Source: Undibacterium sp. (lineage in GTDB: Bacteria; Pseudomonadota; Gammaproteobacteria; Burkholderiales; Burkholderiaceae_D). From it: a stretch of 64,000 bases of DNA. The DNA lies in NCBI GenBank assembly GCA_030645915.1, contig JAUSNO010000021.1:1-64000 (forward strand), in the 5' to 3' direction. Below the pieces are notes generated by a model, which ran no database searches, was not told where the DNA came from, and worked only from the letters and a program-made list of their open reading frames with translations. The position numbers and the translations under genes were made by a program. Shown piece after piece: positions 51,258 through 57,577 of the stretch (position 1 is the stretch's first letter; the number at the start of each line of letters is the position of its first letter).

Positions 51258-52208
51258 ATGACATTTCTTTCCATACTTTTCGCTTTACTCATCGAACAAT
51301 TGAAACCATTGCGGGTGGACAATCCTATATACCTGCAGGTACAAAATCTTGCGGCCAAGGTTGAGGGTTGGTGCAACGCAGGCAAAGCCAAACATGGCCG
51401 TACCGGATGGTGGATCGTCGTCGGTTCATTGACGGTACCTACGGCATTGATTTATTGGCTGTGCCTGTATATCAATCCTTTTGCCGCATTGGTATGGAAT
51501 GTGATCATTGTTTATCTCACCCTTGGATTTCGTCGCTATAGTCATTATTTCACGTCGATACAGCTGGCTTTGAGCTCCGGTGATGAGGCTGCCGCCAGGA
51601 AGTATCTGGCGGAATGGATTAATCGCGACACCACCGATTTAGATGCTTCAGAAATCTCTCGCCTCGCTGTAGAACGGTCGCTCATCGCCTCGCATCGCAA
51701 TGTATTCGGTGTGTTTTTTTGGTTCCTGATGCCAGTTGGCCCTGCCTGTGCCGTCATGTACCGTTTGGCGGAATTTCTCTCCAGGCAATGGAATGAACCT
51801 GAGAACATGAAAAATGAAGAGTTTGGTCAATATGCGACCAAATTCTTTTACTGGATAGACTGGATTCCAGCGCGCCTGACCGCGGTCGCTTTTGCCGTAG
51901 TGGGTAATTTTGAAGACGCGATTTACTCTTGGCGCAATTATGCAGATCGCTGGCCGGACGAATTGGTTGGTATTATTTTATCCTCGGGCGGCGGCGCCAT
52001 CGGCGTGCGCCTCGGCGAGCCGGAAACCAAAGCCATTATCTTGAATGCGGATGCCAGTGCAGTTGATATTGATAGCCTGGAACTGGAGAGCCAGCCTGGT
52101 GTAGAAGCGTCGCCAAGGTCCTTGCAAAGTGCAGTTGGCCTGGTCTGGCGTGCCTTGTTATTGTGGATGCTATTGTTATTGTTGCTGTCATTTTCCATGT
52201 GGCTGTAG
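51258..52208 (+). CDS. CobD/CbiB-like membrane protein
   Basis: A 316-residue membrane protein of the CobD/CbiB-related family. Cobalamin-type CbiB adds aminopropanol in vitamin B12 synthesis; many relatives, including the AmpE-type, have no known role. Hydrophobic helices lie near residues 3-18, 55-90, 160-180 and 295-312. No other B12 gene is adjacent, so the biosynthetic role is not supported. The ATG is preceded by CCCAGCC, a weak site. Confidence 0.8.
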   Translation: MTFLSILFALLIEQLKPLRVDNPIYLQVQNLAAKVEGWCNAGKAKHGRTGWWIVVGSLTVPTALIYWLCLYINPFAALVWNVIIVYLTLGFRRYSHYFTSIQLALSSGDEAAARKYLAEWINRDTTDLDASEISRLAVERSLIASHRNVFGVFFWFLMPVGPACAVMYRLAEFLSRQWNEPENMKNEEFGQYATKFFYWIDWIPARLTAVAFAVVGNFEDAIYSWRNYADRWPDELVGIILSSGGGAIGVRLGEPETKAIILNADASAVDIDSLELESQPGVEASPRSLQSAVGLVWRALLLWMLLLLLLSFSMWL

Positions 52209-52233
52209 TTGTCTCTTGACTCCGGATACATTG

Positions 52234-52767
52234 ATGCCGCAGATAGAAATCTATCCGCCGGTCGTTGCTGACGCCGCAGCTTTGCTTGATTTCGAGCTGG
52301 CAAACCGCGCTTACTTTGAGCGCAGAATCAACGCAAGGCCAGCGAGATTTTATAGCCATGAGGCGGTAAGGTATTCGATTGAAGAGGCAATCCAGCATCG
52401 ATTGCTCGGGACTGCCTATCAATATCTGATCAAGTCGTCTGGAAAAATTCTTGGCCGGGTCAATCTGAGCGGCGTGGAAAAATCGTATTACAACAAGGCG
52501 ACGCTGGGCTACCGGATAGGCGAAGCGCACGGCGGCAGCGGCGTTGCGACGCGTGCCGTGAATCTGGTGTTAACCGAAGCGTTTGAAAAACTGGGCTTGT
52601 GGCGCATAGAAGCCCTGGTGCGCGACGACAATATCGGCTCGGTGCGTGTGCTGGAGAAAAATGGGTTTGCTCTTTTTGGCCGTGCCAGGCAAAGCATGTA
52701 TTTCAATCAGGCCTGGCACGACCTTCTGCATTTTGAATGCCGCTCACCCAAGGGCCCCAGCGTCTGA
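52234..52767 (+). CDS. RimJ/RimL-type GNAT N-acetyltransferase
   Basis: A 177-residue GNAT. N-terminus MPQIEIYPPVVADAAALLDFELANRAYFERRI, acetyl-CoA region TLGYRIGEAHGGSGVATRAVNLVLTEAFEKLGLWRIEALVRDDNIGSVRVLEKNGFALFG, the RimJ-type loop GGSGVA. It starts 25 bases after the CobD-like gene, in the same direction. Substrate unknown. Confidence 0.9.
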   Translation: MPQIEIYPPVVADAAALLDFELANRAYFERRINARPARFYSHEAVRYSIEEAIQHRLLGTAYQYLIKSSGKILGRVNLSGVEKSYYNKATLGYRIGEAHGGSGVATRAVNLVLTEAFEKLGLWRIEALVRDDNIGSVRVLEKNGFALFGRARQSMYFNQAWHDLLHFECRSPKGPSV

Positions 52768-52788
52768 ACTGCCGATTTGGTGCTGCCG

Positions 52789-53490
52789 TTACCAAGGTAA
52801 TTTTTCACCGGTGTACGAGTAAAATTGCCCGCTGTCATCTGCCGTCAAACCATCCAATACCTTCAGCATATCTCTGGCGGCATCATGCGCCGGCCGGCCT
52901 ATCTCTGCGCCACGGAATGGCTGTGACAAAGACGAATTCACTGTGCCCGGGTGCAGCGCGATCAAAGCGGTGTTGGGCTGGGTTCGCCGGATCTCGATGG
53001 CGGCCGTCTTGAGCAGCATATTGAGCGCAGCCTTGGAGGAGCGATAGCTGTACCAGCCGCCCAGGCGATTGTCTTCTATGCTGCCAACCTTGGCCGAGAG
53101 CACTGCCATCACGGCTTTGTCTTTGGCCAGCAGTTTGGAAAAATGCCGCAGCACCATCGCAGGGCCAAAAGTGTTGATCTGGAAGGTTGCCAGCATTTGC
53201 TCGTAGTGCAGATCACCGAGTTTTTTTTCCGGCATGAATTCGGCCGCGTGCAAGACGCCGGTCGCATTGATGATAAGGTGAAACGGCGCTTGTCCGGCGA
53301 GTGCGGATGCGGCATCGGCGATGCTCGCTTCGCTGGTGAAATCAATCGCCGGTTGCGATTGGCGGTGCAAACCGATGACCAAGGCGCAACGCGGATCGGC
53401 ATTGAGCAGGTCGACAAAGGCCGTACCGATCGCCCCGGAAGCGCCTATCACCAACGCCTTGTATTGTTCTGGAAGTGAATGCATGTGCAT
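52789..53490 (-). CDS. Short-chain dehydrogenase/reductase
   Basis: A 233-residue SDR. The cofactor motif is GASGAIG (16-22), the catalytic pair is in SYRSSKAALN (Tyr and Lys), and ATG replaces the usual NAG in IINATGVLH. It is a single-domain Rossmann reductase of unknown substrate. The start at MHMHSLPE is chosen because it lies just after the end of the next gene and a ribosome-like GGATGGG is upstream. It ends a minus-strand run with the Trp-rich gene and the photolyase. Confidence 0.9.
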   Translation of the reverse strand: MHMHSLPEQYKALVIGASGAIGTAFVDLLNADPRCALVIGLHRQSQPAIDFTSEASIADAASALAGQAPFHLIINATGVLHAAEFMPEKKLGDLHYEQMLATFQINTFGPAMVLRHFSKLLAKDKAVMAVLSAKVGSIEDNRLGGWYSYRSSKAALNMLLKTAAIEIRRTQPNTALIALHPGTVNSSLSQPFRGAEIGRPAHDAARDMLKVLDGLTADDSGQFYSYTGEKLPW

Positions 53491-53492
53491 GG

Positions 53493-53714
53493 CTACACCC
53501 ATCCTTGCAGCCAGAGTGATGCATCAGTCAGTTCGCGCCAGTCGATGCGTCGTTTTTCCCTGGAATAGACGGCCTCGATTTCTACCCATTCAATCTTGCC
53601 GTCAGGCGCATCCGGCAGGATTACTTCGCTGACCAGAAAATGTTTTTGCTTGGCGACGACCTTGACTGCGGTCCATTTCGTCAGTAGCAACTTCTTGGGA
53701 TGGAGTGGATTCAT
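53493..53714 (-). CDS. Trp-rich small protein (TIGR02450 family)
   Basis: A 73-residue protein that begins MNPLHPKKLLLTKWTAVKVVAKQKHFLVSEVILP, as in the TIGR02450 family, with tryptophans at 14, 40, 56 and 68 approximately. It is a small conserved protein with no known function. It is followed at 2 bases by the SDR gene in the same direction. In many gammaproteobacteria and cyanobacteria it sits near photolyases. AAGGAAAAAACAC precedes the ATG. Confidence 0.85.
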   Translation of the reverse strand: MNPLHPKKLLLTKWTAVKVVAKQKHFLVSEVILPDAPDGKIEWVEIEAVYSREKRRIDWRELTDASLWLQGWV

Positions 53715-53763
53715 TGTGTTTTTTCCTTGATAGAACTGACTACAAATTTCAAATAGTGGCAGG

Positions 53764-53833
53764 CCCAGCACGCACTATCCATGCGCCTTAGCGGGCAGAG
53801 TGGCTGGAAACCCGCATGGAATATGCGTGGTGG
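53764..53833. repeat. Family A palindromic repeat, copy 8
   Basis: CCCAGCACGCACTATCCATGCGCC and CCGCATGGAATATGCGTGGTGG form the arms. The left part CCCA-CACGCAC matches copies 6 and 9. It sits between the Trp-rich gene and the photolyase gene. Confidence 0.75.
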
Positions 53834-53866
53834 AGGTGTTCCTTTTTAAATTTGATCGCGTAACGT

Positions 53867-55408
53867 TCATAATTCATCAATCCTGTCGCGCAATCCGGTT
53901 GCCTGCGCCTGCAAGGCCTCCACCGCTGCCGGGTCCATTTTGCGCAATTGCGGATACACCATGCCTATGCGCGGATTGCTCGACAGTGTCGCCGCGTTAC
54001 GTGCAAAAAAATCCCAGTACAGTGCATTGAACGGGCAGGCATTTTCGCCTATGCGCAGTTTTTTATCGTAGTGGCAGCCCTTGCAATAGTCGCTCATGCG
54101 GTCGATGTAGGCGGCGCTTGAGACATACGGCTTGGTCGCCAGCAAACCGCCATCGGCAAACTGGCTCATGCCTATGGTATTGGGCAGTTCCACCCACTCA
54201 AACGCGTCGATATACACGCCCAGATACCAGCGATGCACGTCGGCCGGATTGAGCCCCGCCAGCAGCGCAAAATTACCGATCACCATCAGCCGGTGAATGT
54301 GGTGCGCATGCGCGTGTTGCAGCGATTGGCCAATCGCGTTGGCCAGGCAACGCATCTTGGTATTGCCAGTCCAGAACCAGGCCGGAACCGGGCGCGTATG
54401 TCCGAACACATTCTGCTCGGCATAAGCCGGCATGTGCTGCCAGTACACGCCACGGATATACTCGCGCCAGCCGAGTATCTGGCGGATATAGCCTTCGGCC
54501 GACGTGAGCGGCACATGTCCGGCACGCCAGGCCGCTTCCACCTTGGCGACTACCTCACGTGGCCCCAGCATCTTGGTGTTTAATGCGAACGAGAGCAGCG
54601 AGTGGAACAAGCGCCAGGCCTTGCTGCTCATGGCATCCTGAAACTCGCCAAAATGCGGCAAGGCATGTTCGACAAAGGCATCCAGTTGTAGCAAGGCTTC
54701 GTCACGATGCAGCGGCCAGGCGAACGAGGCGGCATTCGGCTCGCCGAAACTTTGGATACCCGCCGCCTGGATGCTTTCCCACAGGGCAGTGTGATCGTGG
54801 CGCTGGCGAAAATCTGCCGGTTCCCAGGGAATGCCGGGCCAGGATTTTCGGTTGTCGTGATCGTAATTCCACTGGCCGCCCACCGGCTTGTTGGCATCAT
54901 CCATCAGCACCTGATGCTTGGCGCGCATGTGGCGGTAGAAATGCTCCATCAGCCATTTTTTACGTCCGGCGAATAATGCGACTGCCTCATCGTGACGGGT
55001 GTAGAAATGCTCGCTGTCGACCATGCGGCAAGCGATCTTCGACGTGCGGCAGTAGTCGGCCATTTGCTGATCGAGCCGCCATTCGTCCGGCGCCTGATAG
55101 TCAAATTCGCTGACCTGGTAATGCGCGATCAGGTCATCGAGATTGGCTGGCAACGATTGCCGGTTGGCCGGATCATCAATCGCCAGGTAATGCACGCGAT
55201 GGCCGGCTGCGGTGAGCTGGCGCGCCAGCTCGCGCATGCCGGCAAAAATCGCAATGATCTTTTGCGCGTGATGTAGTACGTAATCGGTTTCCTGGCGCAC
55301 TTCCATCATGACGTAAATCACATCGTCATGCCGGTGCGCAAACCAGCTATGCAAGGGGTTGAGCTGATCGCCCAGGATCAGGCGCAAAGTGGTGTTGGTC
55401 GTCATCAT
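53867..55408 (-). CDS. Iron-sulfur bacterial cryptochrome/photolyase (FeS-BCP)
   Basis: A 513-residue photolyase-like flavoprotein. An N-terminal alpha/beta domain ([19 protein letters not shown]) precedes an all-alpha FAD domain with [20 protein letters not shown] and [16 protein letters not shown]. Four cysteines (354, 442, 445, 458) match in spacing the [4Fe-4S] ligands of Agrobacterium PhrB as I recall them. These enzymes repair (6-4) photoproducts or act as cryptochromes, using a ribolumazine antenna. The ATG overlaps the stop of the upstream DUF2256 gene by four bases (ATGA), so they are one transcript. Confidence 0.95.
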
Positions 55409-55572
55409 ATTTTCTGGCTATTCGATTTTTGCCGGTGTCGGTTATTGCTGCAGCGTTCGGAACAGTATTTCACTTCATCCCAGACTTTTTCCCATTTTTT
55501 GCGCCAGATGAAGGGCAGCCCGCAAGTGAGACAGAGTTTGTTCGGAAGGTCGGATTTTTTGCGCATTTTCAT
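55405..55572 (-). CDS. DUF2256 zinc-ribbon-like small protein
   Basis: A 55-residue protein, shorter than common calling limits, starting [20 protein letters not shown]. The four cysteines CLTC and CSERC form a probable zinc site, with [16 protein letters not shown] between them. DUF2256 proteins are strongly linked to photolyase and cryptochrome genes. Here it overlaps the photolyase start. A second ATG two codons later is possible. The role is unknown. Confidence 0.9.
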
Positions 55573-55790
55573 TTAAAAATCTCCACTTCGCTCAGCTTGG
55601 CGTTTGCCTGTCAGGTTCGGTGTTTTACCACGTTTTTGTCTAAGTGTTTTTCAGCCGTTGCGAACGGGCGATTTACCGCTGGCGGTAGCCGGTTGCCATT
55701 CTATGCCTGTCCAGTTATAGTCAAAACGAAGTCGACAAATATCCCATCCGCTTATCCCACCCGCTTAATTTCGAAGAAAGAGAGAACGCT

Positions 55791-56435
55791 ATGCAACAGA
55801 TCCTCGTTTATGGTGACTCGCTGTCATGGGGAATTGTTCCTGGCACGCGCCAGCGTCTGGCCTTTGATGCGCGCTGGCCAGGTGTGATGGAGATCAGCTT
55901 GGAAAGCAAGGGACAAGCCGTGCGCGTGATTGAAGATTGCCTGAACGGCCGTCGCACGGTGTGGGACGATCCCTACAAAGCAGGGCGCAATGGCATCGAG
56001 GGTTTGGCGCAGCGCATGGAAATCCACGCGCCGCTTGCATTGGTGATCGTGCTGCTTGGCACCAATGATTTTCAGTCCATGCACCAATTCAACGCCTGGC
56101 ATTCGGCACAGGGCATCGCCGCATTGGTCAATGCCATACGGCAGGCGCCGATAGAGCCGGGCATGCCGCTGCCGGCCATCCTGATCGTGGCGCCGCCGCC
56201 GCTGGATGTTCCCAAAGGGCCGCTGGCACCCAAGTTTGAAGGCGGGCAGGAGAAATCCATCGGCCTTGCGGCAGCATACGAGGACATGGCGGCAAGCTTG
56301 GGATGTCATTTTTTTGACGCTGGCAGCGTGACGCTGTCCAGTCGCGTCGACGGCATTCATCTGGATGCAGGGCAGCATCAGATTTTGGGCCAGGCCATGA
56401 GCTTTTTTGTTGCTGCGCTGTTGCGCGCCAATTGA
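55791..56435 (+). CDS. SGNH/GDSL esterase-like hydrolase
   Basis: A 214-residue SGNH hydrolase of the arylesterase type. The nucleophile is Ser10 in VYGDSLSWG, block III reads VLLGTNDF with Asn92, and the Asp/His pair is in DGIHLDAGQH (Asp187, His190). No signal peptide, so it is cytoplasmic. Ester or peptidyl substrate unknown. It overlaps the next gene by one base (TGATG). Confidence 0.93.
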   Translation: MQQILVYGDSLSWGIVPGTRQRLAFDARWPGVMEISLESKGQAVRVIEDCLNGRRTVWDDPYKAGRNGIEGLAQRMEIHAPLALVIVLLGTNDFQSMHQFNAWHSAQGIAALVNAIRQAPIEPGMPLPAILIVAPPPLDVPKGPLAPKFEGGQEKSIGLAAAYEDMAASLGCHFFDAGSVTLSSRVDGIHLDAGQHQILGQAMSFFVAALLRAN

Positions 56436-56758
56436 TGTCGACTGTCTCACTTTATCTGCCGCCGCATATTCTTGGCTGGGTCGGCGTCTGGTATTTGCTG
56501 GCCAGCCTGGTTTGCTTCGCCATTTATGCAATAGATAAATTGGCGGCCATCGCCGGTCGCAGGCGAGTGTCAGAACGGGCGTTGATCACGTGGGGCTTGC
56601 TCGGCGGCTGGCCCGGTGCGATTGTGGCGCAGCGCCTGTTGCGCCATAAAACAAGCAAGACCCGTTTTCTCTTGGTGTTTTGGCTGAGTGTGGTTCTGAA
56701 TATTCTTGTTCTGTTGTTGTCTTATTTTGTCGCCACCTCATTTTTAGCCTCAAATTAG
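56435..56758 (+). CDS. DUF1294 small membrane protein
   Basis: A 107-residue membrane protein. VWYLLASLVCFAIYAIDKLAAIAGRRRVSERALITWGLLGGWPGAIVAQRLLRHKTSKTRFLLVFW is the DUF1294 pattern. Two to three helices and a short cytoplasmic loop. Unknown role. The ATG overlaps the SGNH stop. Confidence 0.9.
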   Translation: MSTVSLYLPPHILGWVGVWYLLASLVCFAIYAIDKLAAIAGRRRVSERALITWGLLGGWPGAIVAQRLLRHKTSKTRFLLVFWLSVVLNILVLLLSYFVATSFLASN

Positions 56759-56828
56759 TCAGGCAGGGGATGCAGCTGGCCTTGAACCGAGATTTGAAAT
56801 GTTATTGCGACTATCAAAATGAACCAGG

Positions 56829-56899
56829 CCCAGCACGCAATACCGGTGCGGCCTGCAGGCCAGATGCTGCCAGCAGGCGCATGGGGCGTGCGTGCTGGC
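56829..56899. repeat. Family A palindromic repeat, copy 9
   Basis: CCCAGCACGCAATACCGG with GGCGTGCGTGCTGG at the end; the CGCATGG core is near the right end. Just upstream lies TTGAACCGAGATTT, which resembles the end of the 176-bp palindrome at 21321. Confidence 0.65.
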
Positions 56900-56938
56900 A
56901 GGGGCGTATTTTCAAAAAATACCGGGGGGCAGAAAGGT

Positions 56939-57577
56939 TTAATGTTTTTTGCGTAGCGATGTCATCATCAGCACTGCCATGCCGGCCAGCAAGAGCAAAT
57001 AGCTTGCAGGTTCCGGCACCGCCACGCTGGCAGCGTGGACGCTTAAACTTGGTCCCCAGACGGCTTCTTCCATATCGCGCCCGGTCTCGGCATTGATATC
57101 GAATTGAGCCGCCAGGCCATTCGCTTCAGAATAGGAGTAGCCGCTATAAGTGAGCAGGGGGTTGACGATGAAATTGTTGACGCCCCAGGTAAAGTTGTCG
57201 CCGGTGCTGTTGCCGATAATGCGGTACATTTCGCCCGCATTTAGCCTGATTGATGCGATGTTGCTGTAGCGGAAATTGCCAAGCAAGGTGTCGCTGAGGC
57301 TGACGATGGTTTCAGCCAGTTTTGTCCCGTCCATCTTGAACAAGGCAACGCTATGTGACGAAGTGGAAGGCCCGTCGTCATAATAGGCCAGGGCATCGAC
57401 GTCCAGATCCTGATTGGCGAAAAAACTAATGCCAAAATTGTAATCGACGCCAAAGTTGGCACTGAAACCAGGCGCATCAAATTCAAAGGCAGGATCGATG
57501 CTTGTTGCACTGGCACACATCGCCAATGACATGCCGGTAGCCAGAATCAATGAGCGCAAGAGTGTTGAGATTTTCAT
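56939..57577 (-). CDS. PEP-CTERM sorting protein
   Basis: A 212-residue exported protein: signal peptide (SLILATGMSLAMCASA), a beta-rich domain, and the C-terminal PEP-CTERM sorting tail VPEPASYLLLLAGMAVLMMTSLRKKH. PEP-CTERM proteins are processed by exosortase and linked to exopolysaccharide; no exosortase gene is in the window. The domain probably is a lectin- or carbohydrate-type fold, but that is a guess. Confidence 0.9.
   Translation of the reverse strand: MKISTLLRSLILATGMSLAMCASATSIDPAFEFDAPGFSANFGVDYNFGISFFANQDLDVDALAYYDDGPSTSSHSVALFKMDGTKLAETIVSLSDTLLGNFRYSNIASIRLNAGEMYRIIGNSTGDNFTWGVNNFIVNPLLTYSGYSYSEANGLAAQFDINAETGRDMEEAVWGPSLSVHAASVAVPEPASYLLLLAGMAVLMMTSLRKKH

Follow-up and report, generated by a model that had tools for sequence, protein, structure and literature searches.

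Introduction

Work on photolyases generally treats them as enzymes that act alone. Among them, the closest described relatives of the enzyme discussed here are the prokaryotic (6-4) photolyases with an iron-sulfur (FeS) cluster, known as FeS-BCP or CryPro, which include Agrobacterium tumefaciens PhrB (structure 4dja), the solved 7ykn/8a1h and Synechococcus elongatus SePhrB; the accessible parts of the reports on PhrB and SePhrB mention no partner of the family DUF2256 (PMC3204975, PMC9178010). At the level of gene neighbourhoods, the nearest described case is that of the Pseudomonas phrB/cryB regulons of class II LitR, in which a photolyase, a short-chain dehydrogenase/reductase (SDR) and small uncharacterised genes stand under this MerR-type regulator and are light-induced, P. 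putida cryB included; DUF2256 is not named in the accessible part of that work (PMC9758184). Here we describe a related neighbourhood in a stretch of 64,000 nucleotides from Undibacterium sp. (contig JAUSNO010000021.1, hereafter the window), where genes for DUF2256, an FeS photolyase, a tryptophan-rich DUF2389/TIGR02450 protein and an SDR lie on the minus strand at 52789-55572. Undibacterium relatives resemble the Pseudomonas regulons in having a LitR-like gene and a repeated putative operator before DUF2256, whereas no such LitR gene or box turned up for the window's genome, and its photolyase is of the FeS type.

The 55-residue DUF2256 protein is the main subject of this report. Its family is listed among the domains frequent in bacterial proteins no longer than 50 residues (PMC11796252, accessible part). 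The literature that we searched, where most subscription journals were missing, contained neither a function for DUF2256 nor a report of its link with photolyases. We propose that DUF2256 is likely a helper of FeS photolyase, because the two genes are mostly retained or lost as a pair in the genomes examined. DUF2256 thereby gains a specific partner class, and a widespread photolyase accessory, if true, would mark a gap between the test tube and the cell. An uncharacterised partner gene, ybgA, likewise lies beside a photolyase, one of a different class, and belongs to an unrelated family.

The DUF2256 and Photolyase Genes

The DUF2256 gene (55405..55572, minus strand) has a GGAG 5' of its ATG, as read from the sequence, and its product scores 78.5 bits against PF10013, for a cut-off of 25. 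Its TGA stop codon (55405-55407) and the photolyase ATG (55406-55408) share the tetranucleotide ATGA (55405..55408, minus strand), which makes translational coupling likely; a second photolyase ATG follows just after the first, at 55403-55405. A preliminary description of this DNA had noted the four-base overlap and the presence of all four genes on one strand over this span, and the letters and the family-model scores, respectively, bear out both statements. The overlap recurs elsewhere: in 32 of 79 loci examined, the start of a photolyase-family gene could be recognised immediately 3' of DUF2256, and 17 of these 32 have the ATGA overlap.

The photolyase gene (53867..55408, minus strand) encodes 513 amino acids, with 250 bits against PF04244 (DPRP domain). 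Over residues 7-511 the protein matches the solved prokaryotic 6-4 photolyases 7ykn (515 bits) and 4dja (441 bits), and C354, C442, C445 and C458 align with the FeS-cluster cysteines C350, C438, C441 and C454 of PhrB 4dja. The HHIHRLM motif at residue 369 and the YVLHH antenna loop at residue 43 also align with 4dja, so that full-length similarity, the four FeS cysteines, the HH motif and the YVxHH loop are all held in common with FeS-BCP/CryPro. Because of these aligned residues, the expected activity is that of an enzyme for (6-4) photoproducts containing flavin adenine dinucleotide (FAD), an FeS cluster and lumazine.

Co-occurrence in the Genus and the Phylum

Among 39 Undibacterium genomes, DUF2256 is found in 27 and FeS photolyase in 30, and all 27 DUF2256 carriers have both genes, while none of the nine genomes without FeS photolyase has DUF2256. 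The pairs lie within 1.5 kb of each other on the same strand in 26 of 27 cases. A sample of 249 genomes of the phylum gives 52 with DUF2256, 52 with FeS photolyase and 45 with both (Fisher p 1.7e-34, shared ancestry ignored), and collapsing the sample by genus leaves 41, 42 and 38 shared, respectively, of 132 genera. Random association of DUF2256 and FeS photolyase, which would have undermined the preliminary description, is thus rejected at both levels (27/27 in the genus, 45/52 in the phylum). Fourteen named controls gave DUF2256 in two, Caulobacter vibrioides and S. elongatus, both with an FeS photolyase domain; Escherichia coli is among the controls that lack it.

The gene order is far less constant in the phylum. 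Within 2 kb lie 21 of the 45 pairs, with DUF2256 upstream in 7, downstream in 10 and on the opposite strand in 4; another 5 are separated by 2-15 kb and the other 19 are far apart or on other contigs. That the two genes appear to have been re-joined repeatedly in different orders, and retained when apart, speaks for a functional tie and against the inheritance of a single ancient operon. The link itself we consider highly probable.

A broader view comes from named DUF2256 loci, taken as the best 80 of at least 541 relatives, which cover Proteobacteria, Bacteroidota, Verrucomicrobia and others and in which some contigs end inside 6 kb. A photolyase-family gene lies within 6 kb in 46 of these 80 loci; typed by the best of three queries, the FeS type occurs in 31, a type with an HWHCHF motif in 15 and Cry-DASH in 9, with two or more types in eight loci. 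A motif scan of the same 80 loci found no natural DUF2256-photolyase fusion.

DUF2256 often adjoins other photolyase-family genes, namely Cry-DASH and a type of about 510 residues with the motif [HY]WHCHF, as in one Undibacterium locus (L092) with the order HWHCHF-type, DUF2256, Cry-DASH, FeS photolyase, DUF2389 and SDR. We considered and rejected Cry-DASH or the HWHCHF type as the main driver: often physical neighbours, they do not predict DUF2256 where the FeS type is missing. Among phylum genomes without FeS photolyase, DUF2256 is present in 0 of 3 with the HWHCHF type and in 1 of 3 with Cry-DASH, a comparison of low power, and among FeS genomes with neither of these types it is present in 23 of 28. 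At a threshold of E<=2.5e-88 the HWHCHF-type set comprised 19 genomes and omitted a truncated copy in G212, and the Cry-DASH set comprised 18 genomes over the cut-off, G164 and G248 being added by hand for the conditional counts. The exception to this lack of prediction is G272, where DUF2256 lies directly 3' of Cry-DASH. The HWHCHF type occurs once among the 17 loci with the ATGA overlap.

Undibacterium relatives (L092:3899-9671, L097, L110) have as many as three different photolyase-family genes in a row, with DUF2256 lying among them. The [HY]WHCHF-type proteins of L136 (5677-7206, minus strand) and L092 (3899-5446, plus strand) score below the cut-off of every NCBIfam model matched, and for the former no solved relative exceeds 127 bits. 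A strong match to this type is present in 19 of the 249 phylum genomes.

DUF2256 as a Probable Small Zinc Finger

With 15 lysines and arginines against 5 acidic residues, DUF2256 of the window is a basic protein, and it contains four cysteines. An alignment of 68 sequences, assembled without near-duplicates and without L168 and L169, which match in part, has C14, C17, W23, R24, W31, C37, S38 and C41 as invariant positions; the four cysteines and the serine make up the TRASH/FCS signature CX2C ... CSX2C. The family is listed in the TRASH clan, which holds metal-binding domains (PMC4047054, accessible part). A similar layout, CxxCG..W...CSxRC, is found in the gyrase inhibitor YacG (DUF329) and other TRASH/FCS fingers, although the tryptophan-rich basic loop between the cysteine pairs is longer in DUF2256 than in YacG. 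Structural and profile comparisons gave weak likenesses that are not significant: the structure model (predicted local distance difference test, pLDDT, 76; predicted template modelling score, pTM, 0.51) has a weak likeness to the FCS finger 2w0t (Z 2.3), the top three Foldseek matches are YacG chains of 4tma (E 1.1-1.9), and hhalign gives a probability of 55 percent against YacG. A Pfam scan returned no YacG match at E<=0.1. The best solved relative, ribosomal L24 at E 0.015, was taken as a chance match. DUF2256 is most likely a TRASH/FCS-type zinc finger, and would bind zinc.

A Possible Photorepair Unit

The reading that we favour takes the two genes at the core of the locus as a photorepair unit. 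Judged by its family and conserved residues, the FeS photolyase would repair (6-4) photoproducts by blue light. DUF2256, probably produced from the same message by coupled translation, would work with this photolyase class as a basic TRASH/FCS zinc finger in contact with the photolyase or with DNA. It would most likely touch DNA or a DNA-bound protein and so aid the photolyase to reach or hold the lesion, to the benefit of repair, and it would not be a builder of photolyase cofactors. The direct basis of this reading is the identity of the genes, the way they overlap, a co-inheritance in step with the FeS type and the variable gene order. The reading as a whole, in which DUF2256 acts inside the cell at DNA or through another protein, we put at a probability of roughly 0.45. 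A more specific version makes DUF2256 a dedicated FeS-photolyase partner, whose zinc finger, similar to those of YacG and FCS proteins, would bind either DNA or some protein on it, such as a topoisomerase or a nucleoid protein. Inside the cell it would then open (6-4) lesions or mark them for the enzyme, something that purified short-DNA assays do not require; in that full form the proposal seems somewhat unlikely.

The preliminary description had suggested that the small protein might help in iron-sulfur or antenna loading; in the form considered here, DUF2256 would help to load or protect the FeS cluster, FAD or lumazine antenna of FeS photolyase. This idea would agree with the way DUF2256 tracks FeS photolyase in the phylum sample, with its four cysteines and with the metal-binding character of the TRASH clan. 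According to the accessible parts of the reports, however, both A. tumefaciens PhrB and SePhrB contain FAD and an FeS cluster when produced in E. coli, a host that lacks DUF2256; the former contains 6,7-dimethyl-8-ribityllumazine as well, and SePhrB, from a species that does have DUF2256, is active (PMC3204975, PMC9178010). Also, all ten re-searched FeS genomes without DUF2256 over the cut-off speak against it. A required loading role is thus disfavoured, and we regard cofactor loading as quite unlikely. Since the enzymes come out of E. coli with cofactors bound, we favour an activity inside the cell, at DNA or together with another protein.

A signalling function was also considered, in which DUF2256 relays information on light or redox state from the FeS protein, which acts as a cryptochrome in some bacteria. 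Rhodobacter sphaeroides CryB, an FeS member, alters gene expression and is itself under an RpoHII promoter (PMC3320616, accessible part), and nucleic acid binding is conceivable for a small basic zinc finger. Against this, the photolyase of the window retains the residues of a repair enzyme, and we regard signalling as quite unlikely.

Several observations weigh against the photorepair unit as we favour it. SePhrB made in E. coli without DUF2256 repairs 6-4 photoproducts in vitro (PMC9178010, accessible part), and the fold matches of DUF2256 are not significant. The Fisher value takes no account of shared ancestry. Seven of the 52 DUF2256 carriers in the phylum have no clear FeS photolyase, and two of them (G189, G205) have no photolyase-family gene at the thresholds applied. 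Conversely, FeS photolyase occurs without DUF2256 over the cut-off in 7 of 52 phylum genomes and 3 of 30 genus genomes; a re-search of these ten, in which few or no candidates went unscored, found DUF2256 over the cut-off in none, and the control Haloferax volcanii has a photolyase domain and no DUF2256. Since such genomes exist, DUF2256 is, on gene content, dispensable. Its specificity for the FeS type rests on 3 and 3 genomes. The phylum search for DUF2256 scored up to 28 first-look candidates per genome and that for the class I superfamily and HWHCHF type at most 6, so that some of the latter may be missed, and the re-search covered the photolyase-only genomes and not those with neither gene. 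On plasmids the association is looser: DUF2256-centred stretches have a photolyase within 5 kb in 2 of 7 cases (Tritonibacter and Acinetobacter; not Pantoea, Spirosoma, Azospirillum, Hirschia or Salipiger), and FeS-photolyase-centred stretches have an annotated DUF2256 in 1 of 3 (Cupriavidus; not Sodalis or Salinivibrio, the gene table being incomplete). In favour of the link, the Cupriavidus plasmid has DUF2256, the photolyase and the excinuclease gene cho consecutively.

Pantoea accounts for 57 of the 133 plasmid records with DUF2256, the stretch without an annotated photolyase within 5 kb being L177. Acinetobacter plasmids and a Polynucleobacter have a small TIGR03643/DUF2805 protein adjoining DUF2256 (L181:4998-5401, L203:6001-6412). 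DUF2256 is absent from phage records at E<=1e-3, and viral contigs gave one DUF2256 locus.

The Pantoea plasmids, the seven phylum genomes with DUF2256 and no FeS photolyase, and the loose gene order are what would be expected if DUF2256 had its own job in ultraviolet or photo-oxidative stress and were kept with photolyases through the same habitats and regulons. Shared habitat should also tie DUF2256 to the commoner class I superfamily, which matches in 111 of the 249 genomes with all types pooled, yet DUF2256 is predicted better by the FeS type, and the ATGA overlap seen in 17 of the 32 loci also speaks against this alternative. We consider an independent job unlikely and retain the two-gene photorepair unit.

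Light Regulation

The preliminary description regarded the locus as a likely light-response or photoproduct-repair module; a light-response setting finds support in relatives of the window and none in the genome of the window itself. In 8 of the 27 genus loci a LitR-like MerR gene lies directly upstream of DUF2256, and in seven of these eight (L095, L099, L102, L104, L111, L112, L114) the repeat GAACCG-N28-CGGTTC is found 5' of the LitR-like gene, near the likely promoter, followed in five of the loci by N5-CGGTTC. The repeat was spotted by visual inspection, with no estimate of how often it would arise by chance, and two near-identical pairs reduce the seven loci to about five independent ones; it is a candidate operator of the LitR-like regulator. 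The genome of the window (G000) has no homologue of the LitR-like protein at E<=1e-5, other LitR classes not being searched, and GAACCG-N28-CGGTTC is absent from 1.7 kb upstream in the window. The sequence TGTACA-N12-TGTACA has no match in the window at two mismatches. In one further Undibacterium genome (G036:C1:1160673-1164952) about 3 kb separate FeS photolyase from a LitR-like gene, and DUF2256 over the cut-off is absent.

Elsewhere, operons of Vibrio cholerae that contain photolyase-family genes increase in blue light (PMC5241685, accessible part). Because of this case, those of the Pseudomonas regulons and R. sphaeroides cryB, and the LitR-like genes in relatives, light or photo-oxidative control of such loci in general is likely.

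The module promoter would be expected in the intergenic region up to the divergent GDSL gene (55573..55790), which has no LitR-type operator; the search for a sigma-70 promoter 5' of DUF2256 gave none on the minus strand.

DUF2389, SDR and Neighbouring Genes

The DUF2389/TIGR02450 gene (53493..53714, minus strand) encodes a tryptophan-rich protein of 73 amino acids from the ATG common to close relatives, or 92 from a GTG further upstream. It scores 67.7 bits against PF09493 (cut-off 25) and 42.3 against TIGR02450 (cut-off 36.85), and K13, W14, T15, H25, F26, L62, W68, G71 and W72 are invariant in 25 sequences. A fold search returned SH3-like barrels and reductase pieces, with no match at E<=0.001; the best solved relative, ribosome modulation factor at E 0.28, was taken as chance. 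The SDR gene (52789..53502, minus strand; 237 amino acids) scores 45.9 bits against PF00106 (adh_short; cut-off 26.6), and its best NCBIfam model is NF006532, with 179 bits under a cut-off of 330. With the SDR start at 53502 it overlaps DUF2389 by 10 bases, an overlap that ATGs further downstream would abolish.

Between photolyase and DUF2389 lies a gap of 152 bases (53715..53866, minus strand), absent from the preliminary description, with an imperfect hairpin of -40.7 kcal/mol (z -1.5, not significant) and no terminator-like site on the minus strand. Because of this gap and hairpin, the four genes may form two transcripts.

Among the 23 genus members with DUF2389, 17 have it no more than 2.6 kb from FeS photolyase; it is present in 16 of the 249 phylum genomes, 12 of them with FeS photolyase, and in 5 of the 16 it lies within 3.2 kb of a photolyase-family gene, counting class I matches as listed and not all existing ones. 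The claim that DUF2256 and TIGR02450 are often found near photolyases thus stands firmly for DUF2256 and, for TIGR02450, in the genus, being weak in the phylum. One Vibrio and one Salinivibrio plasmid have DUF2389 without a photolyase neighbour. An SDR that clusters with that of the window accompanies DUF2256 in 17 of the 27 genus loci; beyond the genus, the SDR occurs in 5 of 52 phylum loci and 6 of the 80 named loci. In G228 and G275, DUF2389 stands beside a cluster of thiouracil desulfurase/DUF1722, MerR and class I photolyase genes, whose upstream TGTACA-N12-TGTACA boxes are the exact published LitR site (consensus in PMC9758184, accessible part), and G228 has a further T(G/A)TACA-N12-TGTACA box 5' of an amine oxidoreductase-DUF2389 pair. 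DUF2389 and SDR seem to belong to a broader light-stress neighbourhood, and the DUF2256-photolyase pair can probably do without them.

On the other side of the module, a GDSL esterase gene and a DUF1294 gene (56432-56758, plus strand), which overlap by 4 bases, point away from it, and a GNAT gene converges from below. An Rfam scan of 52000-57500 gave zero matches. A palindromic element, possibly a repetitive extragenic palindromic (REP)-like repeat, has two intergenic copies (window 53760-53830 and 56825-56900), both with CAGGCCCAGCACGCA, a sequence with 2 exact matches and 4 at up to two mismatches, against 0.35 expected.

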